Assembly: GCA_017510065.1 (NCBI GenBank)
Contig: JAFWOB010000119.1
Location: forward strand, 1 to 39,842
DNA length: 39,842 bases
Direction of reading: 5' to 3'
Source: Parasporobacterium sp.
GTDB lineage: Bacteria; Bacillota; Clostridia; Lachnospirales; Lachnospiraceae
Shown here: positions 3,901 through 18,619 of the stretch, piece after piece
Numbering within the stretch: position 1 is the first letter of the stretch
How the letters are laid out: each line of letters opens with the position of its first letter
Notes under the pieces: generated by a model
Told to the model about the DNA's origin: nothing
Database searches by the model: none
Seen by the model: only the letters and a program-made list of their open reading frames with translations
Translations under genes and position numbers: made by a program

Positions 3901-4990
3901 ATTCAAAATAATACCTGTAGCCGCCGATGGTCCTCCAGCCATACGCCGGCTCGCCGTCTTCATAGTAAAACCAGTCTTCGCCGACTTTCGTCCAGCCGTT
4001 TTCCTTGATCTTGACCTGGTCTGTAATAACGCCGTTATCGTCAGTCCGGATAAGATATTTGATTCCATCTGTATCCGTATAAGCAAAGGTAACACCTGTA
4101 AGCAGCCTTCCAATTGAGTCAAAACAATATCTGATTCCATCTACTGTGAACGGTCCATTAGCTGCTGCACCACTGGGTCTATAGTAATACTTATCCCATT
4201 CGTTCGGTTCATACCACCCGGTCACCATATGTCCGGATTTGTCAAAACGGTAGGAATAACCATTTTCCCAGAGAAGCTGGTCGCAATACATACGGCCATT
4301 ATAGTCAAAGTAATAATAGTACCCGCTGATCTTCTTCCATCCGGTTACCCGGCTGCCGTTTTCATAGTAATACCAGTCATCGCCGTCTTTCTCCCACCCA
4401 TTTTCCTTGGTATTCAGTACTTCGATGGTTTCTTCAGGTTCGGTACTTTCCGGTGTTTCCTCTGCAGTTTCATCCGTTTCCGGAGTACCTTCTGTTTCTT
4501 CTGTAGAAAGATCCTGCTCTTCAGGTGTTATAATTTCCTCCTGTACAGGTTCAGCCGGAATCTCTTCTTCAGGAGCTGTGGTTTCTTCTTCCTGCTCCTG
4601 AGGCTGCGCGGTTTCCTCTTCGGTTTCTGCTGCCGATTCCGTCACTTCAGATTCTGTGACTTCTGGTTCTGTCTCCTCAGGTTCTGTAACTTCCGGTTCT
4701 GTCACTCCAGGTTCTGTGACTTCAGGCTCCGTCACCTCAGGTTCTGTGACTTCCGGTTCTGTCTCTTCCGGTTCCGTCACTTCAGATACCTCTTCTTCTG
4801 TCTCTTCTTCTGCTGTCAGAACTGCTGCTTCTGCAGACTCTTCTTCTGATTCCACAGCCGGCTCAGCAAATTCCGTTTCTTCTGCATAAACCTCAACTGC
4901 TTCTTCTGTGTTGACCGGTTCTTCTGCAGAAACAGAGAGAATTCCGAAAGACATGACACAGACCAATAATAAAGCAATAAAACGTTTCAT
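950..4990 (-). CDS. Secreted cell-wall/polysaccharide-binding GW-repeat protein (1346 aa)
   Basis: Residues 1-23 form a signal peptide (MKRFIALLL...SVSA, then EEP). Residues 24-190 are a Glu/Thr/Pro/Val-rich linker with TEPEV units. From about residue 197 to the end the protein is an array of roughly 20-24-residue aromatic repeats of the type GW-x-WYYY-x-G-x-MVTGW, the choline/glucan-binding (CW_binding) repeat family. Many units are diverged, with insertions such as [16 protein letters not shown]. No catalytic domain or LPXTG anchor is visible, so it may be purely an adhesive or structural binding protein held by its repeats. The AAAGGA ribosome site precedes the ATG at 4990. It follows the polysaccharide operon and precedes a truncated tandem paralogue. 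The ligand (choline, glucan or the locally made polysaccharide) cannot be told from sequence. Confidence 0.9.
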
Positions 4991-5029
4991 AATTTTTCCT
5001 TTGCTGCTACAAAAATACGTACTACTATA

Positions 5030-5080
5030 AAAATACCATAATATCTACAATATTATGGTATTTTTATCCAATTAATACAA
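5030..5080 (-). promoter_or_regulatory. Promoter overlapped by a perfect 15-bp inverted repeat
   Basis: Arms AAAATACCATAATAT (5030-5044) and its exact complement (5050-5064) flank a five-base loop. On the minus strand TTGTAT (5075-5080), a 17-base spacer and CATAAT (5052-5057) form a sigma-A-like promoter whose -10 box sits in one arm. The element may be an operator for the 1346-residue surface gene, or an A/T-rich terminator for the polysaccharide operon ending at 5093; T runs flank the stem on either strand. Conservation of its core upstream of the paralogue at 614-659 favours a regulatory role. Confidence 0.5.
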
Positions 5081-5092
5081 TCAGCTGCCCGT

Positions 5093-5959
5093 TCATGAGT
5101 GCGGCAGATCCACTGACGCGATCCTCGGCTCAAAACAGCAGGTCGGTCTTACGCATACGATCCTCACGCCGGACGCGCGCTGCGGCCCCACTTTCAGGAA
5201 GGTCGCCAGGACGGAAGTCCTGCCGCCCAGTCCCAGAGGACCAATGTGCTCCTGATTGACTCTGTCCGTGATCAGCTGCTCCATCTCCGACTGAACATCA
5301 TATCTTCCATCCACCTGCGCCTGCAGCATCATGGACGCTGCTTCGTAGTGAGATCTTCCGATTCCGATCGCCAGCGTGCACGGAGAGCAGCCCAGCTGGG
5401 AGACTCCTTCTTTCGCCCAGTTTACGATCTCATCCAGAACAACATCTGTATTATGTTTATGAAAGACACGATATGTCTTTGCCCTGATGGCAGGACCTCC
5501 GCCGAACATCATAATATGCAGCCGGACGGCATTGTCGGAACACTTCCTGATCAGGATCGGGGCAGGCTGCACGGCTGCGCTGTCAGGATCCAGACCGCCG
5601 CTCTGATCCAGCCTCTGGCTGTCGTTTCCTATGATTGCCATGGGTCTTCCCGGCAGCAGGCGGAGTCCCTCCTCCACGCCTTCCCTGATGGCGTCCAGAA
5701 GACTTCCGGATATGCTGCAGCTATCTCCCACTTCCAGAAGAAGATGGGGAATTCCCGTATCGTCGCATAAGGGACTGTGGTTTTGTTCGGCAACTTCTGC
5801 GTTTTCCAGGATCTTTTCCAACACCCATTTTGCATTCGGATCAGTTTCCTTCCCGATTGCTCTTTGATAGGCTTCTTTTTTATCCTGCCGGAACGTGCTT
5901 CCGGCTTTTACCAGGGTATCTCGTACCAGGGAAACAATCTCATCATAATGATCGTTCAT
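5093..5959 (-). CDS. Class I fumarase/tartrate dehydratase alpha-type subunit
   Basis: This 288-residue protein matches the N-terminal (alpha) part of class I [4Fe-4S] fumarase-type hydratases, which add or remove water on dicarboxylic hydroxy-acids such as malate, tartrate or methylmalate. Family landmarks are PLCDDTG (Cys65), LGCSPC followed by IGIG (Cys191/Cys194), GPLGLGGRTS and a C-terminal cysteine pair (Cys274/275) where the third cluster ligand is expected. I chose the ATG at 5959 because AAGGAG lies just upstream; an ATG 15 bases earlier has a poorer site. The start overlaps the end of the beta-subunit gene by 17 bases, suggesting coupled translation. It is the last gene of the operon. 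The natural substrate is unknown; placement in a polysaccharide operon argues against a housekeeping fumarase. Confidence 0.85.
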   Translation of the reverse strand: MNDHYDEIVSLVRDTLVKAGSTFRQDKKEAYQRAIGKETDPNAKWVLEKILENAEVAEQNHSPLCDDTGIPHLLLEVGDSCSISGSLLDAIREGVEEGLRLLPGRPMAIIGNDSQRLDQSGGLDPDSAAVQPAPILIRKCSDNAVRLHIMMFGGGPAIRAKTYRVFHKHNTDVVLDEIVNWAKEGVSQLGCSPCTLAIGIGRSHYEAASMMLQAQVDGRYDVQSEMEQLITDRVNQEHIGPLGLGGRTSVLATFLKVGPQRASGVRIVCVRPTCCFEPRIASVDLPHS

Positions 5960-6458
5960 AAATACTCCTTCCATGGGCTGCCCCGATGATCGCCGGATAT
6001 CTGTCCACTTTGATCAGATACAAAGCCTCCATTCCCAGTTCCGGGAAAGCAAGCAGTTTCTTTTCGGTCATTTTATCCCCCAACAATGCCGTAACAGGCG
6101 GGATCACAGCATATACCGCATGATATCTGTCAAGTGCGCGGATCGTTTCCGCATGCAGTTCTCCTTTGCCCAGATGCATCCTGATCCCGGCTTTGCTTAA
6201 AGGTTCAATGCTTGCTTCGATCTCCAGTTTGTTGGAGCTGGTGGGACCGACGCCGGCAGGACTGACGGCTGTATGAAAGACCACCTGCCCCTCCAGGGAA
6301 ATACCCAGTTCGGATTCTTTTCCCTCTTCGATCATTTTCAGCACTTTCGGAAGGACTGCATCACGGCCGCATAGAATATATCCGCTGATCTCCACCATAT
6401 CGCCTGCTTTCAGATCCCTGATATCCTCTTCCGAAAGCGGTGTACGCAATTGTTTCAT
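5943..6458 (-). CDS. Class I fumarase/tartrate dehydratase beta-type subunit
   Basis: This 171-residue protein corresponds to the C-terminal (beta) half of class I fumarases, which supplies substrate-binding residues and pairs with the alpha subunit encoded next. Visible family motifs are LKAGDMVEISGYI, GRD at 31-33, GPTSSNKLE at 71-79 (usual GPTTSxRM) and LGKG at 96-99. The usual RDAAH segment reads RDAVLPK here, so the histidine normally in this position appears to be missing. That may mean altered substrate use. GAGGTGATTTT precedes the ATG. Here beta precedes alpha; alpha first is the more familiar order. The 12-base gap from the upstream lyase gene supports a shared message. Confidence 0.85.
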   Translation of the reverse strand: MKQLRTPLSEEDIRDLKAGDMVEISGYILCGRDAVLPKVLKMIEEGKESELGISLEGQVVFHTAVSPAGVGPTSSNKLEIEASIEPLSKAGIRMHLGKGELHAETIRALDRYHAVYAVIPPVTALLGDKMTEKKLLAFPELGMEALYLIKVDRYPAIIGAAHGRSIYERSL

Positions 6459-6470
6459 AAAATCACCTCA

Positions 6471-7616
6471 TTATTCATTTACGGCAAACAGTTTGATGTA
6501 AGCGCCTTCATTCTCGATCACGCCGAATGCTCTTGCCCGGTTATAGATTTTCTTGGCCCAGTTTGTATGCGGTTTGATCTCATTCATCTTATTGCCGCCG
6601 GATCCCTTGATCACGCCCCCGGAAGTGCCCAGGATCTGGCAGGCGTCATCATACTCTTCCTTTGTTACCGCCATCAGTGCATTTACAAATTTGACATGTG
6701 TAGGATGTATGACTGTACGACCCACAAATCCGTTGGCCTTATCCAGGATCACCTCCCGGAGAAGTCCGTCGATCTCATTGTTGACCAGTGGTTTTCGGCG
6801 GATCAGATAGTCTTCCAGGCCGTGATCCGGCAGTTTTTCAAACATCATTTCCTTCGGAGCACGGAAATACTCCCAGACAGGACCTGATATCACGTAATCA
6901 TTATTCCGGCCGCACACATTGATGATGTCGGACAGACACTCACGTACTGTCATGATATCATAGAGGCTGTAATCCACACCGCGGCGCACGCCGAACACGC
7001 TGGAAAAATCGGTACCTCCGACACGTACCTGCAGCACAAGGTGATGATATTTATCCAGTATCTTCTTGATCCCGGTCAGTTCACTCATTCTGGTTTCTTT
7101 ATATGCCACCTCCGGATCTTCGATGATCGGCATACCGTAGATGATCTCGCCGAACCGGTCATTCAGATCCTGCAGATAAGCATAGTATTCGTATCCGTTT
7201 TCAGCATTGAACTTCGGGAAGTTCACGCCGCATAAAGACCTGACTTCCTGTTTGGTCAGCTTATCACCAAATGCCTTGAACTGAAGCAGATTACGGATAC
7301 GGACAAAGATCAGCGGAACCTTGTCCGGATCAAGTTTTCCGGTATCCACTGCATCTGTCACGGTTGCCAGAAGATGATGGACATTTTCCATGGCTTCCGG
7401 GACCTTTTCTTCCGGGCAGGCATCTTCAAAACAAAGTACCATGGAAGTAAGCCCCGGCATGGAGGAATCCAGGATCTTAGGCGTAAAATCCTTATATCCC
7501 GGCATATACATGGTCGCTCCCGGACAGTACTGAAGCAGTTCCCTGTCTGTGTATTTATTAAAGCTCTCCGGTTCCACGACAAACGGAAAATCCGGATTAT
7601 ATAAATGATGTCTCAT
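6471..7616 (-). CDS. CitE/HpcH-HpaI family lyase or aldolase (381 aa)
   Basis: This is a TIM-barrel enzyme of the citrate lyase beta/malyl-CoA lyase superfamily, whose members cleave or form C-C bonds next to a hydroxy-acid using Mg2+. Landmarks are MYMPGYKD at 37-44, LCFEDACPEEK at 61-71 (the acidic ED pair), VRIRN, the GTDFSSVFGVRR segment and a C-terminal stretch GFVGRTVIHPTHVKFVN, typical of CitE. It is longer than classical CitE (about 290-300 residues), with extra sequence around the middle and C-terminus. No acyl-carrier (CitD) or CitF partner is present, so it is not a citrate lyase complex. It sits between the orphan TIM-barrel gene (27-base gap) and the hydratase subunits. The likely role is condensation or cleavage of a 2-oxo or hydroxy acid in the same pathway; the substrate is unknown. 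Confidence 0.8.
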   Translation of the reverse strand: MRHHLYNPDFPFVVEPESFNKYTDRELLQYCPGATMYMPGYKDFTPKILDSSMPGLTSMVLCFEDACPEEKVPEAMENVHHLLATVTDAVDTGKLDPDKVPLIFVRIRNLLQFKAFGDKLTKQEVRSLCGVNFPKFNAENGYEYYAYLQDLNDRFGEIIYGMPIIEDPEVAYKETRMSELTGIKKILDKYHHLVLQVRVGGTDFSSVFGVRRGVDYSLYDIMTVRECLSDIINVCGRNNDYVISGPVWEYFRAPKEMMFEKLPDHGLEDYLIRRKPLVNNEIDGLLREVILDKANGFVGRTVIHPTHVKFVNALMAVTKEEYDDACQILGTSGGVIKGSGGNKMNEIKPHTNWAKKIYNRARAFGVIENEGAYIKLFAVNE

Positions 7617-7643
7617 GATCAGTGATCCCCTCTCTATTTTCTT

Positions 7644-8564
7644 TTATAATTCAATCGTATTCTGCACAAGGCTTCCTTTCGGACTCCAGACAGCCTCAGG
7701 GTAGTACTCGTCGATCATCCGTTTGACAAGACTGCACTGCTTTGCGCGCTTTCTGGCGTCATCTTCGGTGCTGTCCCAGGAATGGGTTGCCGCCACCGAA
7801 CCGCCGGTCTTCAGATAGATCGGAGCTGCGATCCGGATCATTTCCGGAACCTCATAATGGCGGATAAATCCTCCGGTTGATTTTGGGTTTTCCGTATGGA
7901 TATCGATCGGACAGCTGACTGCCTGCCGCATGGCCGCAAGCATCTGCAGCTGGATATCACGAACCGGATTGATGGAGTCTGCGCCTGCCATTTCCAACAG
8001 TTTCGCGGAGCAGGGATTGCCATGTCCGGCATGGGCGGAAACCTTGAAATGGCAGTCTTCCGGAATCTCGCCGGCCTTGCGCATTTCATTCAGTACCCAC
8101 AGACAGCCTTCATCATAAACCAGAAAGCCTCTGCATCCCAGGCGTGCCGCACGTTTTACGTCCTCGATCGCCCGGACGATCTGTTCCTGCCCTCTGAGGC
8201 GGTAACCCATTCTGACGCCTTCTTCCGTATGCACGGATGCTGATGTATCCGTGGTGGCACGGGGACCGATCGCCAGGATCAGATCCGTCTCATACTGATG
8301 TGCCAGATCCACCATTTTGCCGATCTCCTCATCGGTAAGACGCATGATACCCTGGGTCTGGGTTACCCGGTGCAGATACAGTCCATAGCCTTCCATTGCC
8401 TCTAAAAGTGCCTTCATGACCTTCGGTCCCTGGATCCCGGGAACCTCGAAACGATACTGTCCTCCGTCTGCAAATCTTTTATTGGAATCCGGAAGGTCAT
8501 AGGCATCCCCGCCCGGAAGACCGATCGATCTTAAAAACGCTCTTGTTTTTTCCATACTGTTCAT
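7644..8564 (-). CDS. Orphan TIM-barrel protein, possibly U32-peptidase-like (306 aa)
   Basis: I do not recognise a characterised enzyme. The alternating strand/helix pattern suggests a TIM barrel: segments such as DLILAIGPRATTDTSAS, GCRGFLVYDEGCLWVLNEM, FKVSAHAGHGNPCSAK, ADSINPVRD, CPIDIHTENPKSTGG and APIYLKTGGSVAATHSW read as successive beta-strand ends carrying His, Asp, Glu and Cys residues. Some of this recalls U32-type peptidase proteins, which are often not true proteases, but the match is weak. GAGGAG precedes the ATG. It lies between the TPP decarboxylase and the CitE-like gene with gaps of 23 and 27 bases, so it is probably a pathway enzyme rather than a protease. Confidence 0.6.
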   Translation of the reverse strand: MNSMEKTRAFLRSIGLPGGDAYDLPDSNKRFADGGQYRFEVPGIQGPKVMKALLEAMEGYGLYLHRVTQTQGIMRLTDEEIGKMVDLAHQYETDLILAIGPRATTDTSASVHTEEGVRMGYRLRGQEQIVRAIEDVKRAARLGCRGFLVYDEGCLWVLNEMRKAGEIPEDCHFKVSAHAGHGNPCSAKLLEMAGADSINPVRDIQLQMLAAMRQAVSCPIDIHTENPKSTGGFIRHYEVPEMIRIAAPIYLKTGGSVAATHSWDSTEDDARKRAKQCSLVKRMIDEYYPEAVWSPKGSLVQNTIEL

Positions 8565-8587
8565 ATATCACTCCTCATCTTTCTGTA

Positions 8588-9733
8588 TTATTTCGTACTG
8601 TCTGTACGGGATAACTCTTTCATAAACCCATCGATCATCTGCCTGTGGTCAAAGACGATGGGAGGCAGCTTCCTGGTCAGCCCTTTATGGATACGGCAGT
8701 CGATAAAAGCTGCTTTTTTACAGTCTTTCAGCTGATTGACCGCATCTTCCAGTTCTTCTTTCGTCGTAACCGGATGCCCGACTGTCTCATATCCGCAGGC
8801 TTTCGCCACGGCTGTGAAATCCACCAGATGACCGGCGGAAGGCTGACCGCCTACCGATTCATGCGCTCCGTTGTTCAGGATCACATGCAAATATCCCGGT
8901 GCACAAACCTTTGCGGCCATGGTCATTGCCCCAAGGTGCATGATCGCGGCTGAGTCTCCGTCCAGCACCACCACATGCCGGTCAGGCTGTTCCAATGCAA
9001 TCCCCAGCGCCACTGAACTGGCATGTCCCATTGACCCTACGTTGAGAAAATCATGGGTCTTTTCTTCCCCTCTTTTCTCCCGCAGGAAAAACAGTTCCCT
9101 GGTAGCCCTGCCTGTAGTCGCCGCATAGATGGTATCAGCCGGCATCAGATCCAGAATGATCTCGATCGCTTCCTCCCGGCTCATGGGATAGGTGTCGTCT
9201 ACATTATTAGCCTTTTCAGAAGCTGCCATAACTCCTTTCGGAGCGATCAGTCCGTAAGGAGTCCGGTTTTCGCGGCAGTATGCGGCTGCTTTTTGAATGG
9301 TTTCGGAAAAATGTCTGTCATCATCTTCCAGGATGGTATAGGGAATCTGAAGATCCTGCAGCAAAGCAGGCGTAATCTCCCCTTGCCGTTTGTGCTGGGG
9401 ATGGTTCGGCTCCGTATCTCCCTGTCCCCGCCAGCCGATCAGAAGCAGCATCGGCACGGCATATACATCTTTGTCAACAAGCGAAGCCAGCGGATTCAGT
9501 GCATTTCCCATTCCGCTGTTCTGCATATATACTAAAGGGATCTCACCCGAAGCGAAATAATGTCCAGAGGCGATCCCCACTGCATTTCCTTCATTGGCTG
9601 CGATTACCATCCGGTCCCCGCAGTTTGCCAGCGCATAGTTGCAGAACCCGTTCAGATAAGAGTCCGGTACTCCGACATAATAGGTGATCTTATTCTGTTT
9701 CAGTGTTTCAAACACCCGTTTTTGATCCAGCAT
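8588..9733 (-). CDS. Phosphonopyruvate/sulfopyruvate decarboxylase-type TPP enzyme (381 aa)
   Basis: It decarboxylates a 3-substituted pyruvate to an aldehyde using thiamine diphosphate. Strong family landmarks are GVPDSYLNGFC at 21-31, AANEGNAVGIASG with the catalytic-type Glu48, LVYMQNSGMGNALNPL at 67-82, LLLIGWRG at 97-103, and the TPP-binding stretch from LDGDSAAIMHLGAM (from 257) to NNGAHESVGGQPS (287-299). Length and both domains match phosphonopyruvate decarboxylases. The start follows the stop of the aldo/keto reductase gene with no gap, and the GGAGGTGAG site lies inside that gene. No PEP mutase is in the window, so phosphonopyruvate may not be the substrate. The next enzyme upstream could reduce the aldehyde product. 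Substrate identity is inference. Confidence 0.85.
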   Translation of the reverse strand: MLDQKRVFETLKQNKITYYVGVPDSYLNGFCNYALANCGDRMVIAANEGNAVGIASGHYFASGEIPLVYMQNSGMGNALNPLASLVDKDVYAVPMLLLIGWRGQGDTEPNHPQHKRQGEITPALLQDLQIPYTILEDDDRHFSETIQKAAAYCRENRTPYGLIAPKGVMAASEKANNVDDTYPMSREEAIEIILDLMPADTIYAATTGRATRELFFLREKRGEEKTHDFLNVGSMGHASSVALGIALEQPDRHVVVLDGDSAAIMHLGAMTMAAKVCAPGYLHVILNNGAHESVGGQPSAGHLVDFTAVAKACGYETVGHPVTTKEELEDAVNQLKDCKKAAFIDCRIHKGLTRKLPPIVFDHRQMIDGFMKELSRTDSTK

Positions 9734-10714
9734 CTACTTCTTCTCACCTCCTACAGAGCCTTTTCCTTTATACAAAGTAAAATACTCCGGCGAATCCGCT
9801 TTTGTCAGCTGCCAGGCCTGTTCAAACGCGGCAACGACCTCTTCCGGAAGCGGTCCCTTGTGGACGGCATCCATATTCTGCCTCAGATGATCCGGTTTTG
9901 AAGCGCCGATTAAGATCGCATCGCCTCTGTCTCCCTTCAGCATGGAGTGGTAAGCCAGCCACCGATAGGTCGCCTCAATCGTAGTGATGCCACACGCCTC
10001 CGATGCTTCCCGGATCAGATCCACTGCTTTGAAATAGTTTTCTTTCCAGTAACGGTTCTGATAATTGGGCCGATGGGTAAATCGTCCGTCCGCAGGCTCT
10101 TCTTCAAAGGATCTGTAACGTCCTGTCAATAAGCCCCCTGCCATAGGATTGTAGGCATAAAACCGCATACCGAAATGATCCAGGCAGTCATTGAGCTCGA
10201 TCTCCGCTTTCCGTGTCAGCGGATTATAGATTCCTTCGTATACAGAAGGCTTTATCCAGCCATGACGGTCACAGATATGATACACATCCGTTGTCATCCA
10301 TGCAGGGAAATTGGAAAGTCCCAGTTCCGTAAAACACCCCTGACAGTGCAGATCGTTCATAGCCTGAAGGACCCCTTCCACCGGGGTGGCAGGATCCGGG
10401 AAATGCAGGTATACCACATCCACATGATCGAGTTTCATGCGTTCCAGGCTTTCATGAACCTGTTTGTAAGCTGCATCGCCGTCCAGTTTTCCGCTGATCC
10501 GGGGATTCACCTTGGTAGCGATCTTAAACGGACGATCAAGACCGGGAAGAACTTCTCCCAGCAGCCGCTCACACATTCCTTCATTGTATACATAAGCGGT
10601 ATCAAGTTCCTGATAGCCCGCATCCAGAAACATTCCGATAAACCGGCTGACATCCGGGGCAAATACAGATTCCCCGAAGGTCATGGTTCCTAAAACAAGA
10701 TTCACTTCTTTCAT
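9734..10714 (-). CDS. Aldo/keto reductase
   Basis: This 326-residue NAD(P)H-dependent reductase carries the expected catalytic tetrad: Asp38 (ELDTA), Tyr43 (YVYNEG), Lys68 (IATKVN) and His104 (VVYLHFPDP). The segment LVLGTMTFGESV and the later RFYAYNPMAGGLLTGRY resemble the AKR7 branch (aflatoxin-aldehyde/succinic semialdehyde reductases). AGGAGAATGATAG precedes the ATG. Genes on either side are 14 and 0 bases away. Position directly before the TPP decarboxylase gene suggests it reduces the aldehyde made by that enzyme to an alcohol, or a related oxo intermediate. The substrate is not determinable here. Confidence 0.85.
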   Translation of the reverse strand: MKEVNLVLGTMTFGESVFAPDVSRFIGMFLDAGYQELDTAYVYNEGMCERLLGEVLPGLDRPFKIATKVNPRISGKLDGDAAYKQVHESLERMKLDHVDVVYLHFPDPATPVEGVLQAMNDLHCQGCFTELGLSNFPAWMTTDVYHICDRHGWIKPSVYEGIYNPLTRKAEIELNDCLDHFGMRFYAYNPMAGGLLTGRYRSFEEEPADGRFTHRPNYQNRYWKENYFKAVDLIREASEACGITTIEATYRWLAYHSMLKGDRGDAILIGASKPDHLRQNMDAVHKGPLPEEVVAAFEQAWQLTKADSPEYFTLYKGKGSVGGEKK

Positions 10715-10728
10715 CTATCATTCTCCTG

Positions 10729-12063
10729 TTATAACCGGCTGATCAGTTCTTCTGCCAATACCTTTTCCCCGGACACACTCCGGTATACTTCATCTGCGAT
10801 CCCGGGAAGTATATGTGCATAAGCCATGAGGCCGTCATAACGTTCCTTAAATTCCTGTTCGCTTAATGGATTTTCCGGTTCTCCCTTGGGATAATCCACT
10901 GTATCCTGATACTCTGCATTTCCGGCTTTGACGGTTACAACAGCTCCCTGCACCTGTGGGAAGAGGGCGCTTAGTTTTTCATCCGCTTCCACCCGGACCT
11001 TTCTGGTCAGATCCAGGATCTCTTCTTTCTTAACCGCTTCTTCACTGAATTCCTGCAGACCTGCCCTGCCATATAAGAATCCTGCTGCCGTTGCATAGGG
11101 AATGCTCATTTTGGCATTGTAGCTGCCGGCAATCTCTGTATGGTCATGACCGGAAACCGCCAGATCATAGGTTCTTATAACGATCTGGTCCACATCCTCC
11201 GGCCGTACCTGACTTCTCAGATGAAGCGCCGCTTCCACCGCAGGATGTGTATACCTGCAAGAAGCATATGGTTTGGTGTAGGATTTCTGGATCGCATAGG
11301 TGCCGTTCAGCAGAACCGGCTTCAGCTCCACGCTCTCTTCTCCGGTCATCATCTTCAGGAAGCCCCGTCCGCCCAGAGGATCACTATGCCCTTTAAACCC
11401 GCTCATCGCCATCTGAAGGCTTGTCAGGGCCAGAAGGCTTGTCTTGGCCACATTGTAGGGCTTCAGTTCACTTCCGTCATCCAGCACTTTCAGCATACCG
11501 GAAGCGGCTACACAAGCTGCCGCAAAAGTCTGAAACCTCTCCTCCTCACCAAGTCCCAGCAGATAGGCGGCAGACAAGGCCGCACCTAAGGTACCGCAGG
11601 TCCCGGTGGCGTGATATCCCATTGCCTTATGTCCCGGCTGAATGGAAACAGCCATGGTATAGGAGGCTTCATACCCGACAACCGCTGCTTTCAGCATCTC
11701 TTCCACAGAAAAATGATATCGCTGTGATAAGGGAAGCAGCAGGGAAAAGATCGGGGAACCCAGATGAATGATCCCGGAATTGGTCCCGTCGTCGAAATCC
11801 AGTGCGTGACCATTCAACCCGTTCAGGAAGACCGCCTCTTTCAGTACCACATCTTTTCCCGTTCCGATCACCCGGAACTCACCTGTTTCCGGCTGCGCGA
11901 ACTGCCAGTATTTTTCCAGCTTTTCCTTTTGAAATTCTGCCCCGGCGCAGGTTACGGCAAGATAGTCCAGCAGGCTTTTTCTTGCCCGTTCCATCACCAG
12001 TGCCGGTATTTCACGGTTCCATACCGAATCGATTGTATGCAGGAACTCGATTGATTGATTCAT
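10729..12063 (-). CDS. MmgE/PrpD family dehydratase-like enzyme (444 aa)
   Basis: Full-length member of the family that includes 2-methylcitrate dehydratase and cis-aconitate decarboxylase. Motifs are NGLNGHALDFDDG at 81-93, GYHATGTCGTLGAALSAAY from 149, KPYASCRYTHPAVEA at 264-278 and YNAKMSIPYATAAGFLYG further on; these contain the conserved active-site Asp, His and Lys positions. Such enzymes dehydrate, decarboxylate or isomerise branched di- or tricarboxylic acids. There is no PrpB, PrpC or aconitase in the window, so a propionate methylcitrate cycle is unlikely. The gene starts the metabolic half of the operon, 15 bases after the flippase gene, with AGGAAGG upstream of the ATG. A role in making a polysaccharide substituent is inferred from context. 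Confidence 0.85.
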   Translation of the reverse strand: MNQSIEFLHTIDSVWNREIPALVMERARKSLLDYLAVTCAGAEFQKEKLEKYWQFAQPETGEFRVIGTGKDVVLKEAVFLNGLNGHALDFDDGTNSGIIHLGSPIFSLLLPLSQRYHFSVEEMLKAAVVGYEASYTMAVSIQPGHKAMGYHATGTCGTLGAALSAAYLLGLGEEERFQTFAAACVAASGMLKVLDDGSELKPYNVAKTSLLALTSLQMAMSGFKGHSDPLGGRGFLKMMTGEESVELKPVLLNGTYAIQKSYTKPYASCRYTHPAVEAALHLRSQVRPEDVDQIVIRTYDLAVSGHDHTEIAGSYNAKMSIPYATAAGFLYGRAGLQEFSEEAVKKEEILDLTRKVRVEADEKLSALFPQVQGAVVTVKAGNAEYQDTVDYPKGEPENPLSEQEFKERYDGLMAYAHILPGIADEVYRSVSGEKVLAEELISRL

Positions 12064-12078
12064 CTTTACTTTTCCTTC

Positions 12079-13506
12079 CTATGCTTTCGCTTCTGACCGC
12101 TTTACGACCATCCGGAATAAACGTTTCACCAGGTCACGCTTTATCCACATCACCAGACAGAACACGATGACATATATACCAATGATGATATAACGGATCA
12201 GGGCATAATCATAAATGAAATTGACGCCGAGTGTAAGTACCATCATAACTCCCACAATTAACAGAACAAACTTGTTGTCATAAACATCTCCCAGCTTCAG
12301 TTTTCTGACAAGCAGCATATGCGCGATCAGAAGGAACAGATAACCGGCCAGTGTTGTGTAGGCTGCGGCATTATATCCATACATGGGAATAAAGATCGCA
12401 TTCAGTCCGTAATTCATACCTGCCGCAAGTACGCTGACGATCGCCATTCCGGTTGTTTTTTTCTTGTACTGCTCCACATTGACATATAACGTATACAGGA
12501 ACTGACATACACATCCCATAGCTACCGGCGGCATGACATATCTGGCTTCCAGGTAACTTCTTCCGCCCATGATCAGCAGAAGTTCCGGCGTAAGCAGCAT
12601 AATGCCGAAAGCTAAAAACGCGAACGCCGCAATGTAATATCTGACAACCTTCCGGATCTCTTCATTTTTTCCTTCATGAAGCTTATCGCCCAGCCATGGA
12701 GAGAACGCCATATTCATGGCGGTCATCAGCAGCGTGACCACATGGCCGCAGGTATATGCGATGGTATAAAGCGCATTATCCGCAGCTCCGCAGATCTTTT
12801 TGATCATGATCTTATCTATGGAATTAAGGACCTGCAAAGACAGAAGATGCGGAACATACGGAATGCAGATCTTTAAGGCATATGGCCAGATCGATGTATC
12901 GACCGACCGTTCCCGTTTGAAAAACCAGAACACAAGGACCAGGCCGATCGCTACAATGGGAAGGATGCCGCCGAGGATCCTTCCTGCCAGACGGTCCTCC
13001 ATCAGAAGAACCAGCAGGATTGAAACGACCGCAGTGCTGATCGTTGTAACCAGGGATACCAGAACAGATTTTTTATACCGGTACTGAAACCGCTCATAAA
13101 TCTGAAAAATACTGATCACGGCATTAAAGAAACAATACACGAGCAGCAGATTTATGTAGAATCGGCTGAACCCGAGAAGATTCGTGAAGAAGGGGGAAAA
13201 AATATTAACAACCAGTGCCCAGCAGCAGGTAACCAGGGCTGTCAGCGCGATCACAGAACGGTTGTATAAACCGGATCTGTCCTTGAAATCGAATTTTGCG
13301 CTGATAAAACTGGCTTCCGCCCTGAGGGAGACCACGATAAAGGCGATGGTCATCCAGGATTGGAAATTGCTGTATTCACCAACCTGCTCTTTGGTCAGCA
13401 GCCTGGAAAAGATCGGTGTTATGATAAGGGTTACTGCCCGCACCAGCAGATTTGAGAAAATATACCAAAAGCCTGATTTCAATGCTTTTGAATTATAATT
13501 GTCCAT
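12079..13506 (-). CDS. Wzx-type polysaccharide repeat-unit flippase
   Basis: A 475-residue integral membrane protein of the MATE/oligosaccharide flippase superfamily with about 12-14 hydrophobic segments. The N-terminus (ALKSGFWYIFSNLLVRAVTL, then TPIFSRLLTKEQVGEYS) is the typical opening of Wzx/PST exporters, and the short basic stretch ends the protein (IKRDLVKRLFRMVVKRSEAKA region). It would move the undecaprenyl-linked repeat unit across the membrane for polymerisation by the Wzy-like protein encoded two genes upstream. GAGGAACAC precedes the ATG. The gaps to its neighbours are both 15 bases. High confidence in the family; no substrate can be inferred. Confidence 0.9.
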   Translation of the reverse strand: MDNYNSKALKSGFWYIFSNLLVRAVTLIITPIFSRLLTKEQVGEYSNFQSWMTIAFIVVSLRAEASFISAKFDFKDRSGLYNRSVIALTALVTCCWALVVNIFSPFFTNLLGFSRFYINLLLVYCFFNAVISIFQIYERFQYRYKKSVLVSLVTTISTAVVSILLVLLMEDRLAGRILGGILPIVAIGLVLVFWFFKRERSVDTSIWPYALKICIPYVPHLLSLQVLNSIDKIMIKKICGAADNALYTIAYTCGHVVTLLMTAMNMAFSPWLGDKLHEGKNEEIRKVVRYYIAAFAFLAFGIMLLTPELLLIMGGRSYLEARYVMPPVAMGCVCQFLYTLYVNVEQYKKKTTGMAIVSVLAAGMNYGLNAIFIPMYGYNAAAYTTLAGYLFLLIAHMLLVRKLKLGDVYDNKFVLLIVGVMMVLTLGVNFIYDYALIRYIIIGIYVIVFCLVMWIKRDLVKRLFRMVVKRSEAKA

Positions 13507-13521
13507 GTGTTCCTCTTTCTT

Positions 13522-14649
13522 TTACCGCTTTGTATCCCCGCTGACAATATGAGACAGCACATCTTCCAGTTCTTCCATGGAGGAAGGGGCTATGACTCGT
13601 TCCGGCTGCCTGTAGGTGCCCCGGAACTTTTCATAGATTTCGGTAAAGTTTCTACTGATCCTGCTGTCTTTCAGGATCTTATGCAGGCAAATGACCACCG
13701 GTTCGCAGTCCAGAAAGATCTTGGGGGTAAATACCGCAGAGGATACATGCGAGATCAGCACTCTGTTTTCAAGATCCGGCATATCCATGTACAAAACTTC
13801 CATCGGGACGCCCTGATGAGCATAAGACTTCATCTGACATCCCGGCTGTTCCGTACTTTTCGGATGCGGTTTGCAGATCACGTCTTCTCCTGCGTAACGC
13901 GTGACCAGCGTATAGCAGCTGTCCAGGAGGTCCTTCTCTTCCTTCGTCAGGACATCCAGTTCTGCCCCGCGTCTCTTGGTATCAAAAATAATATATTTTT
14001 CGAAGATACTCTGTTCTCTTCCAACAGAGAAGATATCAAAAAACAGGTCCCGGGTCGTCGGATCGATCTGCAGCCGGGGCATCTGTTCCACCTTGTGTCC
14101 CTGAAGGAAATCCGGCATTTTGACAAGCTCAGGCAAATAAGCCATCAGCCTGATCTTCTTCGGATCATCCAGATCCCAGTGCAGTATCTTTTCGATCTTT
14201 CTTCTAAGACCGGATACCCGGAACAGACTGCCATTATTGGAATAGGTCCCCAGCCCGTCTTCATAGACCACCCTGGTGATATTGGGATTTCTTTTCCGAA
14301 GGACTCCCAGCTGGGAAGATTTCAAGGTAGAACGGCTGGTAACAAAATACTGGTCATAGGAAATATCCTTCGGCATATAGGTGGATACTGCCTTTTCCGC
14401 GAAAAAGGTCATTTTAATGGACGCCAGTTTGCCTGTTCCGGAAACGATCTTACTGTCAGCAACGTATACATTGGCGAAACAGTTGTATTTCTTCAGCTTT
14501 TCCGCAAGTGTTCTGTAACCGGGAAACTCTCCGGCAATGTAAAGATCTGCATCCAGTTTCAGGCCGTTTACAATGCCAACCGCGCCCATAACCTGATAAG
14601 GTGAGGAACAGAAAAAACAGGCTTCTCTTCTCTTAAACTCTTTTTTCAC
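13522..14649 (-). CDS. Sialyltransferase-fold glycosyltransferase (GT52-like)
   Basis: The 375-residue protein starts ACFFCSSPYQVMGAVG at residue 10, the usual opening of GT52-type enzymes, and carries the three short motifs of bacterial sialyltransferases: YEDG (129-132), HP in KPHPKS (262-263) and SS in SHVSSAVF (303-304). These transfer CMP-activated nonulosonic acids. No sialic, legionaminic or CMP-sugar synthesis genes are in the window, so the donor may be made elsewhere or be a different sugar. The start codon is GTG at 14649-14647, with GAGGT upstream; no nearer ATG fits. It is the only obvious glycosyltransferase in the operon besides the initiating enzyme, 4 bases after the polymerase gene. 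Confidence 0.75.
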   Translation of the reverse strand: MKKEFKRREACFFCSSPYQVMGAVGIVNGLKLDADLYIAGEFPGYRTLAEKLKKYNCFANVYVADSKIVSGTGKLASIKMTFFAEKAVSTYMPKDISYDQYFVTSRSTLKSSQLGVLRKRNPNITRVVYEDGLGTYSNNGSLFRVSGLRRKIEKILHWDLDDPKKIRLMAYLPELVKMPDFLQGHKVEQMPRLQIDPTTRDLFFDIFSVGREQSIFEKYIIFDTKRRGAELDVLTKEEKDLLDSCYTLVTRYAGEDVICKPHPKSTEQPGCQMKSYAHQGVPMEVLYMDMPDLENRVLISHVSSAVFTPKIFLDCEPVVICLHKILKDSRISRNFTEIYEKFRGTYRQPERVIAPSSMEELEDVLSHIVSGDTKR

Positions 14650-14653
14650 ACGA

Positions 14654-15796
14654 CTACCTCAATATTCTTTCTATCTCATCCTGTTCTGCCAGAGGATATA
14701 AGATCAAAAACATCAGAACCGGCATGCCGTACTGTCCGAATATAAACTTATCCGTCATTCCCCGGATGATCAGAACTACGAGCAATGACAGAATAAAAAA
14801 CTGCCGGTTCCTTATATAAAGCACTACCGCCCGAATCAGATAGACCAGGAACAGAAGCACCACAAAAATGCCTCCCATGGCATGCAGCTGAAGGAAGCTG
14901 TTATGTACATTTCCTCCAAATGGCTGAATGATCTTAATGCTTTTCAGCGGTGCTCCAAAGATCAGGTTCTTCGGATTGGCCAGGACAGTATGGATATACT
15001 CCCCCCAGATCGAATACCTGATGGAACTGCTGGTACCCTTGGACTGAAAATTGCCAAGGTTCAGAAATCCCTGCAGCAGAATATCCGCATCAAACACCAG
15101 GACCGCCCCTACCACTGCGATCACACAGATGATTGCGATCAGACGTTTTAATGGGCTTTCTGTTTTTTTCAGGATGTATTTGATAAAGACAAATACCATT
15201 AAGATCCCGCTGGACAGTATCCCGCCGCGGCCTGCAGCCAGAACAGACAGGAAAAAGCCAAACACTGCCGGCAGAAGATCTATCAGCCGGAGATTCCGCC
15301 CGTTCCAGTCAAACGGACAGTAATACAGGATCGCCATCAAAATGATCAGGACGGAAACATAATTGTTGCTGCTGTGAGACAGGACCGTTGCTGAATGACC
15401 TAGCAGGAACTGCAGAGTCAGTACGATAAAGGTGATATAAAACATGAAAGCGCCTTGCAGAACACTCCATCGTACGATCAGCATGGTCCCGATCACTCCC
15501 ACCAGAAACAGGTTGGAGACAATATCGATCAGCGAAACATTCCCGACCAGCAGCTTGTTTGCCACGATCATGACCATGAACAAAACGGAAAACAGATAAT
15601 AATTCCGGAGATCATAGGATATATGGAACAGAACAACTATCAGGCCGAGCACTCCCACAGCTGCCATGATCAGATAATTCAGATAGATCTGATTTTTGTA
15701 CATCTTAAGGAAATTCCCCAGATAAAACAGTATGGGAAAGAACGAGATCACTGATGCGATTCGGATTCTGGCAGTTTCCTGATTTGTGTTCAACAA
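14654..15796 (-). CDS. Wzy-like O-antigen/capsule polymerase
   Basis: A 380-residue protein with about ten hydrophobic segments and one larger exposed loop near residues 240-300 (LNLGNFQSKGTSSSIRYSIW, then HTVLANPKNLIFGAP), the architecture of Wzy polymerases that join repeat units outside the membrane. Sequence conservation in this family is low, so the call rests on topology, the WGEYIHTVL-type loop and the operon context (flippase, PCP proteins, initiating transferase). The start appears to be TTG at 15796-15794, placed by AAAGGAG a few bases upstream; a second TTG follows directly. Gaps to neighbours are 9 and 4 bases. Confidence 0.75.
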   Translation of the reverse strand: MLNTNQETARIRIASVISFFPILFYLGNFLKMYKNQIYLNYLIMAAVGVLGLIVVLFHISYDLRNYYLFSVLFMVMIVANKLLVGNVSLIDIVSNLFLVGVIGTMLIVRWSVLQGAFMFYITFIVLTLQFLLGHSATVLSHSSNNYVSVLIILMAILYYCPFDWNGRNLRLIDLLPAVFGFFLSVLAAGRGGILSSGILMVFVFIKYILKKTESPLKRLIAIICVIAVVGAVLVFDADILLQGFLNLGNFQSKGTSSSIRYSIWGEYIHTVLANPKNLIFGAPLKSIKIIQPFGGNVHNSFLQLHAMGGIFVVLLFLVYLIRAVVLYIRNRQFFILSLLVVLIIRGMTDKFIFGQYGMPVLMFLILYPLAEQDEIERILR

Positions 15797-15805
15797 TAAG
15801 CTCCT

Positions 15806-16711
15806 TTAGCTCTTCTTCCGTTTCAGATACTCCTGATACGGTGTATTCAGATCATAGTAATCCGGCACATCCACCGGAACTCTCTGCTCTACAGACGGCA
15901 GTTTCATATAATCCCCGTATGCCCTGCTCAGATAATCATCTGTTTTGGCGGGTACTTTAAACTGTTTTCCGTGGAACGGCAGATAGACAGACTCTGTAAA
16001 ATCCGTAATCGGCTGCGCATAACCCAGTCCGTTGATCGCCACTTTTTTACAGCCTGTACCGTTATATTTCTTGACCTGCTTACCGGCAAACTCCATGATC
16101 GCATTGCGCAGCTTCCGGCCGCGGATCAGTCCGAGAAGGATCGTGGTGCCGACTTTTCTCCATTTTTTCTCTTTCAGAGCCTTTCTTCTGGTCAAAAACA
16201 GCACATACAGATAGGCGTAGATCAGCTGGATCCTTCGTTTGAGAGGCTGAGCAGGGATCTCATCCATGGGCTCAATATCGATCTTAACGCCGAGGTTGCG
16301 ATCGGTCAGTCCTTTTTCAAATCCCCTGATAAAAGTAGTACTGTTATTTCGTAATATCCCGATCGGTACATAAGCACAGAAATCACTTGTTGTTCTGTAT
16401 AGAGAAAACTTCTCTTTATCGCCATGCTCTTCCCATAACCGGAACAGCTTGTCAAAATCGGCTCTGAGTACCGCTACATCCAGATCATCATCCCAGGGGA
16501 TAAAATCCTTATGACGGACAGCCCCCAGGCAGGTTCCGCCGACCATACAGTACTGTATCCCGTTCTCTTCGCAGAAATCCGCGAAATAAGCCAATGTATC
16601 AAACAGTTTTTCCTGAAGAAGCGCGATATCCTCCGGCTTTACTTTGCCGTATCCCTTTCCATCGCCTCCCGTCCGTGTTACTTCGTACGGACTCTCTGTA
16701 TTTTGGGCCAC
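15806..16711 (-). CDS. LicD family phosphotransferase (phosphocholine-type)
   Basis: LicD proteins transfer phosphocholine or a similar phospho-group to sugars of polysaccharides and teichoic acids. The diagnostic nucleotidyltransferase-fold motif is at residues 57-81: VGGTCLGAVRHKD followed by FIPWDDDLDVAV, with the acidic DDDLD. The 301-residue length is normal. The start is GTG at 16711 with GGAGGATATAGCAAC before it. No choline kinase, uptake or cytidylyltransferase gene (LicA, LicB, LicC) is in the window. Its co-occurrence with five secreted proteins bearing choline-binding-type repeats suggests that the polysaccharide could be their ligand; that link is inference, and the transferred group may be different. 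Confidence 0.85.
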   Translation of the reverse strand: MAQNTESPYEVTRTGGDGKGYGKVKPEDIALLQEKLFDTLAYFADFCEENGIQYCMVGGTCLGAVRHKDFIPWDDDLDVAVLRADFDKLFRLWEEHGDKEKFSLYRTTSDFCAYVPIGILRNNSTTFIRGFEKGLTDRNLGVKIDIEPMDEIPAQPLKRRIQLIYAYLYVLFLTRRKALKEKKWRKVGTTILLGLIRGRKLRNAIMEFAGKQVKKYNGTGCKKVAINGLGYAQPITDFTESVYLPFHGKQFKVPAKTDDYLSRAYGDYMKLPSVEQRVPVDVPDYYDLNTPYQEYLKRKKS

Positions 16712-16730
16712 GTTGCTATATCCTCCTTTA

Positions 16731-17966
16731 TCAGTCTTTCAGATCAGGAAGCAGGTCATGACGCATGATATCATTGCCGTCGACATCTAAGATCCTGACT
16801 GTTTCGACAAATTCTCGATGTTTCCTGTTGAACTCCTCAAGAGTATCCGCCTGAAATGTTACGCCGCAGATACGATCGGAACTGCTTGTGATACTCCCGG
16901 AGAAATTCCAGCCTGTGGGACGCAGACACCGATAGTCTGTAATATTCCCTTTCTGCAGTTGTTCATCAAACCCTTCCAGATGGTCGAATACGCCCGGACG
17001 GCAATAAATGAAGTCATTGACAATGTATTTATTTTCCGGCTCCCGTATCTTGATTTCAGGTTTGATTCCCATGGTCAGATCGATCACACCCCGGATCACA
17101 TCAACACCGCTGGCATGCTGTATCAGCAGCCATTTCATGGCCCCTCCGGTCCTGGCGCAGAATTCCAGGACACTGACTTTCTTTCCGTCTGTCAGCATCT
17201 GGACCAGCATCGGAGCATTATAGATTCCAAAGGCATCTGCGATCTTCTGGGAAACCCGGGCAATCTCTGTTTTCAGTTCTTCCGAAGCATGCACCGGACA
17301 TCTCCCTCTGAAAATGGCAAAATGTTCCGAGTCCTTTACCTTGTCGCTGTTGGAGATACACAGAATGTGTGCAGTCCCGTCTTCGATAAAAAGATCGACA
17401 CTGATCTCTTCCCCCTCAAAGAACTCTTCCACAATGGCATTTCCGGACCGGCTGATCGTCCTGGCTTCTTCAAAGGCGGACCGAAGTTCCGCTTCATTGA
17501 GTACTTTCCGCACTCCTTTGGAACTGTAAGCATCGACAGGTTTTACGATCAGCGGATACTGAAGATGACGGATCTTTTCCATCTGCAGTTCCTGCATGAC
17601 GACATAGCGGGAGGTAGGAATCTGGTTTTGGACAAAGATATCCTTCATCAGTTCCTTATCCGAAACTCTTTTTGCGGTCTCATAATCAATATACCAGGGA
17701 AGCCCCAGTTCTTCCGATACCTGGGCTACCACAAGAAGGACCTGGTCAGCACACACGGTGATCACGAAATCAACATCTTCCTCCCGTGCGATCTTTTTCA
17801 CGCCCTCGATATCAAAAATATTGATCTGATAGAACTGATCCGCATACGGTCTGGCAATGGGATGAGCACTTCCATCCACAAGAACTGTCCCGACGCCGCG
17901 TTCCTTCAATTCCTGTATCAGAGTAATCTGCGGAAGTCCGCCTGCAACTACTAATGCCTTTTTCAT
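16731..17966 (-). CDS. ATP-grasp domain ligase (411 aa)
   Basis: The protein has the ATP-grasp order: a pre-grasp Rossmann-like start (KALVVAGGLPQITLIQEL), a middle segment with TSRYVVM and PLIVKPVDAYSSKGV (ATP loop, residues about 135-160), EEFFEGEEISVDLF, and the metal-binding VLEFCARTGGAM. Such enzymes form amide or similar bonds between a carboxylate activated as acyl-phosphate and an amine. Relatives occur in polysaccharide clusters and in peptide or amino-acid ligation. It overlaps the initiating transferase gene by four bases (ATGA) and precedes licD. In this operon it is a good candidate to attach a carboxylic acid to an amino sugar or amine; substrates are unknown. Confidence 0.8.
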   Translation of the reverse strand: MKKALVVAGGLPQITLIQELKERGVGTVLVDGSAHPIARPYADQFYQINIFDIEGVKKIAREEDVDFVITVCADQVLLVVAQVSEELGLPWYIDYETAKRVSDKELMKDIFVQNQIPTSRYVVMQELQMEKIRHLQYPLIVKPVDAYSSKGVRKVLNEAELRSAFEEARTISRSGNAIVEEFFEGEEISVDLFIEDGTAHILCISNSDKVKDSEHFAIFRGRCPVHASEELKTEIARVSQKIADAFGIYNAPMLVQMLTDGKKVSVLEFCARTGGAMKWLLIQHASGVDVIRGVIDLTMGIKPEIKIREPENKYIVNDFIYCRPGVFDHLEGFDEQLQKGNITDYRCLRPTGWNFSGSITSSSDRICGVTFQADTLEEFNRKHREFVETVRILDVDGNDIMRHDLLPDLKD

Positions 17967-18619
17967 TGTCTGCTCTCCTGATCCTTTTCATGCTCCTGAA
18001 AATAATCCATGATCGGCTGATGACCTTCCTTGAATTCAATTCCTTCCCGGATAAAGATCTTTTTAAATGTCAGAAGAATGATCTTGAGATCCATTTTAAA
18101 TGTCAGATGATCCACGTATTCGATATCTTTTTCGAATTTTCCTTTCCAGGTCAGCGCATTTCTCCCGCTGACCTGAGCAAGCCCTGTAAGACCGGGTCTT
18201 ACTTCATGCCGCCTCATTTCAAAGCTGTTATAATACGGAAGGTATTTGACAAGCAGCGGCCTTGGGCCGACAAGACTCATATCCCCCTTGAAGATATTAA
18301 ACAATTCCGGCAGTTCATCCAGACTTGTGGACCGCAGGATCCTTCCAAACCGGGTAAGCCTTTTTTTATCCGGAAGCAGTTCCCCGTTTTCATCCCTGGC
18401 ATCCGTCATGGAACGGAACTTGTACAGCCGGAAGACCTTTCCGTTTTTTCCGGGGCGATCCTGGGTAAAGATAACCGGTGAGCCCAGATGGACCCTGACA
18501 ATCACTGCCAGGATCAGATACAGCCAGCAAAATATGATCATCACCAGTAAAGAAACTACAATATCAATAAATCTTTTGAAAAAGGCTTCATAAGGCCCTT
18601 TCACAGTATGCTTCTGCAT
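17963..18619 (-). CDS. Initiating phosphoglycosyl transferase (Bac_transf family)
   Basis: A 218-residue monotopic phosphoglycosyl transferase like PglC or the catalytic domain of WcaJ/CpsE. It has one hydrophobic reentrant segment near residues 17-42 (FIDIVVSLLVMIIFCWLYLI), VIFTQDRPGKNG, FRLYKFRSM (63-71), the catalytic Asp-Glu pair at 101-102 in STSLDELPELFNIFKGDMSL, VGPRPLL (117-123) and RPGLTGLAQVSGRN. It places the first sugar-phosphate on undecaprenyl phosphate. The short form without an N-terminal four-helix domain suggests a UDP-diNAc-bacillosamine or UDP-HexNAc type donor, which fits the sugar aminotransferase at 38278-39585, although that gene is far away. The stop overlaps the ATP-grasp start. 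Confidence 0.9.
   Translation of the reverse strand: MQKHTVKGPYEAFFKRFIDIVVSLLVMIIFCWLYLILAVIVRVHLGSPVIFTQDRPGKNGKVFRLYKFRSMTDARDENGELLPDKKRLTRFGRILRSTSLDELPELFNIFKGDMSLVGPRPLLVKYLPYYNSFEMRRHEVRPGLTGLAQVSGRNALTWKGKFEKDIEYVDHLTFKMDLKIILLTFKKIFIREGIEFKEGHQPIMDYFQEHEKDQESRQ

Follow-up and report, generated by a model that had tools for sequence, protein, structure and literature searches.

What does a row of seven organic-acid enzymes do directly behind the Wzx flippase gene of a polysaccharide operon? This question is raised by contig JAFWOB010000119.1 of Parasporobacterium sp. (assembly GCA_017510065.1; Lachnospiraceae), whose 39,842 nucleotides are called the window below; it is contig 77 of its own draft genome, which has 3.47 Mb and is 90% complete. 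A first-pass annotation of the window had described the seven genes as a module making an uncommon small acid with which the glycan is decorated. In our opinion, the best reading for the window is indeed that the block serves specifically to make a precursor of a surface glycan, a proposal to which we give close to an even chance. The families, their order and their positions are as that annotation had them, every open reading frame (ORF) being found in its place on the minus strand:

10729..12063, minus strand: MmgE/PrpD-family enzyme, type 0 (PF03972 at 137.4 bits and PF19305 at 123.4 bits, cut-offs 32.1)
9734..10714, minus strand: aldo/keto reductase (AKR), nearest to aflatoxin B1 aldehyde reductases (PF00248)
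8588..9733, minus strand: thiamine pyrophosphate (TPP)-dependent 2-oxo acid decarboxylase, AepY-related (PF02775/PF02776, TIGR03297)
7644..8564, minus strand: orphan TIM-type protein, only very distantly related to Peptidase_U32 (its own sequence matches no Pfam or NCBIfam family)
6471..7616, minus strand: C-C bond lyase of the CitE superfamily, related to Ter-operon members (PF15617)
5943..6458, minus strand: class I (Fe-S) hydratase beta subunit, FumB-like, with a diverged substrate loop (PF05683)
5093..5974, minus strand: class I (Fe-S) hydratase alpha subunit, FumA-like (PF05681)

Read from the Wzx gene through to FumB, the gaps are 15, 14, 0, 23, 27 and 12 bases, so that the description of them as under 30 bases is correct (the largest is 27), and the FumB and FumA ORFs overlap by 32 bases in window coordinates.

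Conservation of the gene block

The TIM-type protein served as the probe for conservation. In genome contigs a scan detected 251 relatives; only the best 80 loci were kept, which biases the identities given here upward. Gene calls come from our own ORF scoring, which missed some genes, protein clusters were made by single linkage, and alignment A2 has 48 rows, a selection from the 80 loci. All seven families are present at 47 of the 80 best loci. Because the same gene order recurs across many genomes, the conservation of the block exceeds chance, and the co-occurrence search that the first-pass annotation had suggested as a check thus finds the block elsewhere. A diverged copy in a single-contig genome (L122) keeps the whole order at identities of 69% (TIM-type protein), 48% (TPP enzyme) and 55% (CitE-like lyase), with an ATP-grasp gene before the block and a DegT gene and two nucleotide-sugar genes after it.

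Many Clostridia of rumen and gut have the block, which is also present on contigs labelled Spirochaetales, Kiritimatiellae and Victivallales. Among cultured isolates it is carried by Lachnospiraceae NE2001 (L010, transporter-type) and Sarcina sp. DSM 11001 (L031, no transporter). On contigs with these three labels (L042, L056 and L061, respectively) the TIM-type proteins are 91-92% identical to that of the window, which may reflect horizontal transfer or assembly contamination. Own genome included, the TIM-type protein was found in 3 of 392 genomes of the order, and in the phylum sample 32 of 398 genomes have a relative of it; no relative was confirmed on viral contigs. Searches of open-licence papers found no description of this enzyme combination, in agreement with the first-pass annotation, which knew of no described pathway of this kind.

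The idea of one fixed set of seven had to be given up: AKR and the TPP enzyme are replaced at 13 of the 80 loci (variant 2, see below), PrpD comes in several types, and five genomes are without CitE. Among the 33 loci that do not have all seven families, 13 are variant 2, and in 11 the sequence stops at most 250 bases from the block at the end where the missing genes would lie. CitE alone is missing at three of the 80 loci (L035, L042, L050), AKR is missing between PrpD and the TPP enzyme in another genome of the family (L004), L085 has neither AKR and TPP enzyme nor the dehydrogenase of the variant-2 cluster, and the reason for the incompleteness of L019, L026 and L082 is unclear. The nearly constant part of the block consists of the TIM-type protein, PrpD, FumA and FumB, the exceptions being L056, L058 and L069.

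Polysaccharide genes and transporters around the block

The surroundings of the block were compared at long loci (at least 15 kb, n=57), 38 of them without and 19 with a LysR/DctM-like transporter set. For controls, 40 stretches were requested at set positions of 20 module genomes; of the 33 obtained, the 29 of at least 10 kb were used. Queries for polysaccharide markers were taken from the window and from the Segatella copri locus L090. The ATP-grasp counts use the window's ATP-grasp protein only, because an ATP-grasp hidden Markov model (HMM) built from the same loci is circular; together with a PF14397-type HMM it gave 32/38 versus 5/19, which was not used for the conclusion. PF14397 was not found in the window's own genome.

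At least one polysaccharide marker is present at 31/38 loci without the transporter set, at 8/19 loci with it and in 3/29 controls. For at least two markers the counts are 19/38, 2/19 and 1/29 (Fisher p 2.6e-5 for 19/38 versus 1/29, and p 0.55 for the transporter loci versus controls). The ATP-grasp gene is found at 25/38, 4/19 and 0/29 (p 3.3e-7 for 29/57 versus 0/29; p 0.002 for 25/38 versus 4/19), and DegT at 18/38, 1/19 and 1/29. As the loci are related, the p values are only a guide. Pfam tallies of the flanks are led by ATP-grasp, DegT, L-amino acid ligase, nucleotide-sugar and glycosyltransferase families in the group without transporter (128 of 255 flank proteins given), while no family is above 4/87 in the transporter group (87 of 96 given). 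The link to the glycan is thus real but not universal. What stands of the claim that the acid decorates the glycan is the enrichment beside polysaccharide and ATP-grasp genes; since transporter-type loci have fewer glycan markers and rarely ATP-grasp, the role may not extend to all loci.

These transporter-type loci bring in a different explanation, that of a catabolic or fermentative module. A DctM-like transporter under LysR control would take up a C4-C6 acid, PrpD, FumAB, the TIM-type protein and CitE would rearrange it, and the resulting 2-oxo acid would be decarboxylated and reduced as an electron sink; the nearness to polysaccharide genes would then be a matter of mobile islands. Indeed LysR, DctM-like or small membrane genes of one set occur at 22 of the 80 loci, with the small membrane gene directly upstream of 16 PrpD genes, and in distant operons TIM homologues are paired with malic enzyme and FumAB of canonical motifs, some of these operons containing PrpR-like sigma-54 regulators and DctM-like genes. 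However, the 38 long loci without transporter are the ones enriched for polysaccharide and ATP-grasp genes, no transporter of this set is part of the window's block, which comes after genes for Wzx, a Wzy-like protein and LicD, and the variant-2 dehydrogenase occurs at 12/38 long loci without the transporter set and at 0/19 with it. As an account of the block we find this explanation unlikely; a catabolic role is possible, above all at the transporter-type loci.

Two tails and a proposed 2-oxo acid

Variant 2 has no TPP enzyme and no AKR, and a D-2-hydroxyacid dehydrogenase is present instead (13/80 loci). L016 has both tails together with a single TIM, CitE and FumAB. Since each of the two alternative tails is fit for the consumption of a 2-oxo acid, we infer that the core of the block makes such an acid and that it is the branch point between them. 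Near the lyase gene of three variant-2 loci (L039, L074 and L075) lie CoA-transferase-like genes, so named from the appearance of their sequence.

The reductase of the first tail is closest to the aflatoxin B1 aldehyde reductases, which carry the label AKR7. Its solved relatives 2bp1, 2clp, 2c91 and 1gve match at E values of 4.6e-84 to 3.7e-82, the next chain at 2e-26, and the catalytic Asp, Tyr, Lys and His are kept in 58/58 distinct copies (the 59 rows contain the window two times), so that by catalytic tetrad and closest similarity it is of AKR7 type. Titles in the reference list of PMC10221418 equate aflatoxin aldehyde reductase with succinic semialdehyde reductase. The module AKR differs from these reductases in being bacterial and in lying inside this gene block.

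Phosphonate or another 2-oxo acid?

The TPP enzyme passes the cut-off of the phosphonopyruvate decarboxylase model TIGR03297 (396.1 versus 312.5 bits), and its best plasmid relative, at 46%, is AepY of a phosphonate/polysaccharide locus of Segatella copri. The plasmid cassette of this species, AepX-AepY-phosphonoacetaldehyde reductase, is one of the closest known parallels to the block: a TPP decarboxylase for a 3-substituted pyruvate is followed by an aldehyde reductase gene, and both cassette and block sit among flippase, polymerase and glycosyltransferase genes. Unlike the cassette, the block has no PEP mutase, the motif of its decarboxylase is changed, its reductase is aflatoxin-aldehyde-reductase-like, and five further enzymes are present.

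In a tree with midpoint root the module TPP enzymes form one clade (support 99/96), which groups with the Segatella AepY and two copies from the L018 genome (support 100/99). The motif WRGxPGxxDEPQH is invariant in 9/9 AepX-linked AepY proteins. Among nine module rows E111 is changed in 9/9, D110 in 7/9, and P105 and G106 in 6/9, so the module enzymes do not carry the AepY motif; 40 of 56 AepY-invariant positions are kept in all nine rows. Phage records gave three TPP matches.

The first-pass annotation had noted that the phosphonate partner genes are absent from the window, and no PEP mutase (PF13714) was found in the own genome at its 90% completeness. A survey of 30 module genomes chosen from the 80, whose completeness is not given, has PF13714 over cut-off in three and none over cut-off in 27. 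At L018 and L058 an AepX-like gene lies about 2.5 kb from the block; the third match belongs to the genome of L073. L018 has its own AepY and reductase beside the AepX-like gene, on the opposite strand, whereas the part of L058 that was read shows neither. AepX-like PEP mutase genes near the block are at L018:16040-20489 and L156:8932-10941. The ordinary PEP-mutase phosphonate route was rejected, because PEP mutase was not found in the own genome and is rare in the module genomes surveyed and the motif is changed.

It can still be argued that the TPP enzyme uses phosphonopyruvate, supplied by an unrecognised mutase in the block or by a PEP mutase elsewhere, so that the product would be 2-hydroxyethylphosphonate in variant 1 or phosphonolactate in variant 2. 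Phosphonopyruvate can be reduced by D-2-hydroxyacid dehydrogenases, and both tails suit its chemistry; the model score, the Segatella relative and the AepX-like neighbours, that of L058 with no further decarboxylase in the part read, point in the same direction. Against this stand the lack of PF13714 in the own genome and in 27 of 30 others, the separate AepY and reductase of L018 and the changed motif residues, and we judge this explanation improbable. The same two-tail logic would apply if the 2-oxo acid were sulfopyruvate, which would give isethionate or sulfolactate on the glycan, and sulfopyruvate decarboxylase subunit models do match the TPP enzyme (109 and 84 bits). These scores are far under the cut-offs of 221.5 and 147.95, whereas the phosphonopyruvate model passes, and no sulfonate gene is seen among the 20 window ORFs scanned, the genome not having been searched for one; a sulfonate seems to us very improbable.

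Enzymes of the core

The nearest solved structures to the window PrpD are the B. subtilis IRG1 homologue and iminodisuccinate (IDS) epimerase. In PMC12290011, six residues of IDS epimerase are named, and the substrates of all known MmgE/PrpD members are said to share a 1,4-dicarboxylate (four-carbon) part. The six residues given there map to H86, D89, H100, H151, K201 and K264, and 6/6 are kept in the window PrpD. The second base of the epimerase, Tyr145, is replaced by Lys in PrpD types 0 and 2; in type 1 Val mostly takes its place. D88 is replaced by Glu in types 1 and 2. The 80 PrpD rows fall into type 0 (n=45, that of the window), type 1 (n=16; 24% identity to the window PrpD in the one row compared), type 2 (n=13; behind the dehydrogenase in 9/13 rows) and six singletons. 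Of the 43 type 0 rows counted, 11 have an ATP-grasp gene immediately before PrpD and 14 have the transporter's small membrane gene there; for type 1 (n=16) these numbers are 7 and 2. The window PrpD thus shares the six residues with IDS epimerase, among characterised relatives that also include cis-aconitate decarboxylase, methylsuccinate isomerase and 2-methylcitrate dehydratase; it differs from the characterised enzymes in the changed Tyr145 and in scoring far under the PrpD equivalog cut-off (TIGR02330, 22.5 versus 458 bits). For the latter reason the propionate (methylcitrate) pathway was rejected.

The FumA-like subunit has three cysteines that align with those of E. coli FumA (in an alignment with E. 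coli FumA and TtdA), where they bind the Fe-S cluster. With class I fumarase and L-tartrate dehydratase the pair shares the two-subunit hydro-lyase family, these cysteines and a pass of TIGR00722; it differs from them in the alpha subunit, where CQDTG has become CDDTG and the PxH site PQR, and in the beta subunit, where seven residues are deleted and GPTTxxRMD reads GPTSSNKLE. FumB thus lacks the GPTTxxRM(D/E) loop of the class, and it fails TIGR00723 (87.4 versus 145.15 bits). Six FumAB pairs beside distant TIM homologues are canonical where those of the module diverge. As the substrate loop is altered, plain use of fumarate or tartrate was rejected.

The lyase matches PF15617 with 373.8 bits (gathering score 28.4) and has 48% identity to a Brevibacillus plasmid protein; the gene neighbours of four plasmid relatives were compared. 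In a tree it groups with the PF15617 members of Ter type, and residues invariant in the 14 compared rows are kept. An ATP-grasp gene is also near one Ter-type member, but the partners differ from those of Ter operons: phosphoribosyltransferase, StiP and TerD do not appear among the top 25 Pfam families in the module flanks that were sampled, where no targeted search was made. The CitE equivalog cut-off is failed (26.6 versus 443.4 bits), and CitD and CitF have no match among the 20 window ORFs scanned. Citrate fermentation was rejected with the CitE model under cut-off, as was itaconate degradation with the RipC model under cut-off. The 'fumarase-like' pair and the 'CitE-like' enzyme of the first-pass annotation are diverged members of their families, unrecognisable as fumarase or citrate lyase.

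The TIM-type protein of the window matches neither PF01136 nor any other Pfam or NCBIfam family, and 20 of 33 homologues match PF01136 (Peptidase_U32; best 2.1e-7); because these matches exist in homologues only, the fold is an assumption. Profile matches in the PDB are weak and mixed (best 0.018, a fructose-bisphosphate aldolase fragment) and were not used as evidence. Nineteen positions are invariant in the 33 rows, among them E40, D151, K174, D203, D221, R235 and K252, and no cysteine is among them. Elsewhere the homologues adjoin Ldh_2, Glu/Leu/Val dehydrogenase or D-2-hydroxyacid dehydrogenase, and because such enzymes recur as neighbours we take the protein to act on 2-oxo or 2-hydroxy acids. 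L123, L126 and L134 have groups of Ldh_2, TIM homologue, FumA/FumB and malic enzyme in varying order, L126 with a PrpR-like regulator in addition; L147, L149 and L158 have groups of ketopantoate hydroxymethyltransferase, TIM homologue and Glu/Leu/Val dehydrogenase. Plasmid homologues in Thermomicrobium and Enterobacter are annotated as U32 peptidase. One on a plasmid of Enterobacter chuandaensis (L088) is accompanied by a phosphotransferase, an aminotransferase, two iron-containing redox enzymes, an MFS transporter and a nucleotidyltransferase, a set resembling a natural-product cluster.

Proposed pathway

Taken together, the residues of PrpD, FumAB, the lyase, the TPP enzyme and the likeness of the AKR suggest a 2-oxo acid with a second carboxylate that would be converted to a carboxy-aldehyde and then to a hydroxy acid. 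Starting from a substituted 1,4-dicarboxylic acid, the PrpD-type enzyme, FumA/B and the TIM-type protein, in most cases together with the PF15617 lyase, would form a 2-oxo acid in which the second carboxylate is retained; at transporter-type loci the LysR/DctM-like transporter would import the starting acid. In the window, the TPP enzyme would decarboxylate the 2-oxo acid to a carboxy-aldehyde and the AKR7-like reductase would reduce this to an omega-hydroxy acid, as the families and the kept catalytic residues indicate. In variant 2, where the replacement of the genes is observed, the D-2-hydroxyacid dehydrogenase would reduce the 2-oxo acid to a 2-hydroxy acid. Finally the ATP-grasp ligase, which co-occurs with the block, would couple the acid to an amine, for example that of an amino sugar, after which the decorated unit would be exported by Wzx and Wzy in the usual way. 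A route from oxaloacetate to 3-hydroxypropionate was set aside by reasoning only, as PrpD, FumAB and the TIM-type protein are not needed for it.

Several observations weigh against a glycan precursor pathway, among them the TIGR03297 score and the AepX-like neighbours discussed above. Transporter-type loci make up 19 of the 57 long loci, 11 of them without any polysaccharide marker, and 13 of the 38 long loci without transporter have no match to the window's ATP-grasp. The 80 loci are closest relatives and not independent samples, mostly from metagenome assemblies. Nor is the core fixed: in stretches of about 20 kb, L058 is without PrpD, L056 without PrpD, AKR and TPP enzyme, and L069 without CitE and FumA/B, and a search of 10 genomes for CitE failed to find it in 5 (seven of the ten were picked for a CitE-less locus, and all five negatives are among these). 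FumA passes TIGR00722, if narrowly (103.4 versus 100.65 bits), and the changes in the FumA/B pocket leave the substrate open. The distant operons that combine a TIM homologue with malic enzyme seem to be catabolic.

One may go further and suppose that the block is an entire pathway not yet described: a decarboxylase of the phosphonate route was recruited for a branched dicarboxylic 2-oxo acid, tails and PrpD heads can be swapped, the varied acid is ligated by ATP-grasp enzymes to amino sugars of the glycan, and the TIM-type protein represents a new class of enzymes forming or cleaving 2-oxo acids. This whole picture we hold to be rather unlikely.

The surrounding operon

The other features of the row to which the block belongs are these:

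12079..13506, minus strand: Wzx flippase, directly upstream of MmgE/PrpD
16731..17966, minus strand: ATP-grasp ligase of the same gene row (PF13535, PF02655, PF15632, weak LAL_C2)
12079..18619, minus strand: polysaccharide genes upstream of the block (Wzx, polysialyltransferase-like, O-antigen ligase/Wzy-like, LicD, ATP-grasp, sugar transferase)
about 5029..5065, no strand assigned: probable terminator, an AT-rich inverted repeat of 16 bases that has T runs, read by eye

The inverted repeat lies 3' of FumA and it is for this reason that the seven-gene block is probably the end of the polysaccharide operon; the repeat is not listed by the terminator scan, which demands G-C pairs. The ATP-grasp ligase has PDB matches to 4dim, the L-amino acid ligase 3vot and PylC, and its relatives are frequently found immediately upstream of PrpD at other loci.

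Large choline-binding-repeat proteins are encoded on both sides of the LicD-carrying operon (window 950-4990, 22756-24735 and 34842-38117), whose glycan may carry phosphocholine. An ORF of 3241 residues (window 25085-34810) has BLAST similarity to the adjoining choline-binding-repeat protein. A DegT aminotransferase at window 38278-39585 has 69-73% identity to copies at seven module loci of both variants (L010, L022, L036, L047, L049, L055 and L078).

Implications

Precursor cassettes within polysaccharide loci are already known as a kind, and it is this set of enzymes for which no description was found. If the block does make an acid for the glycan, it would account for a surface decoration not known so far, assign a role to an orphan protein family present in many genomes and show a phosphonate-type decarboxylase turned to another substrate. 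Should the acid indeed vary with the heads and tails of the block, related gut and rumen bacteria would vary the acid on their surface glycan.

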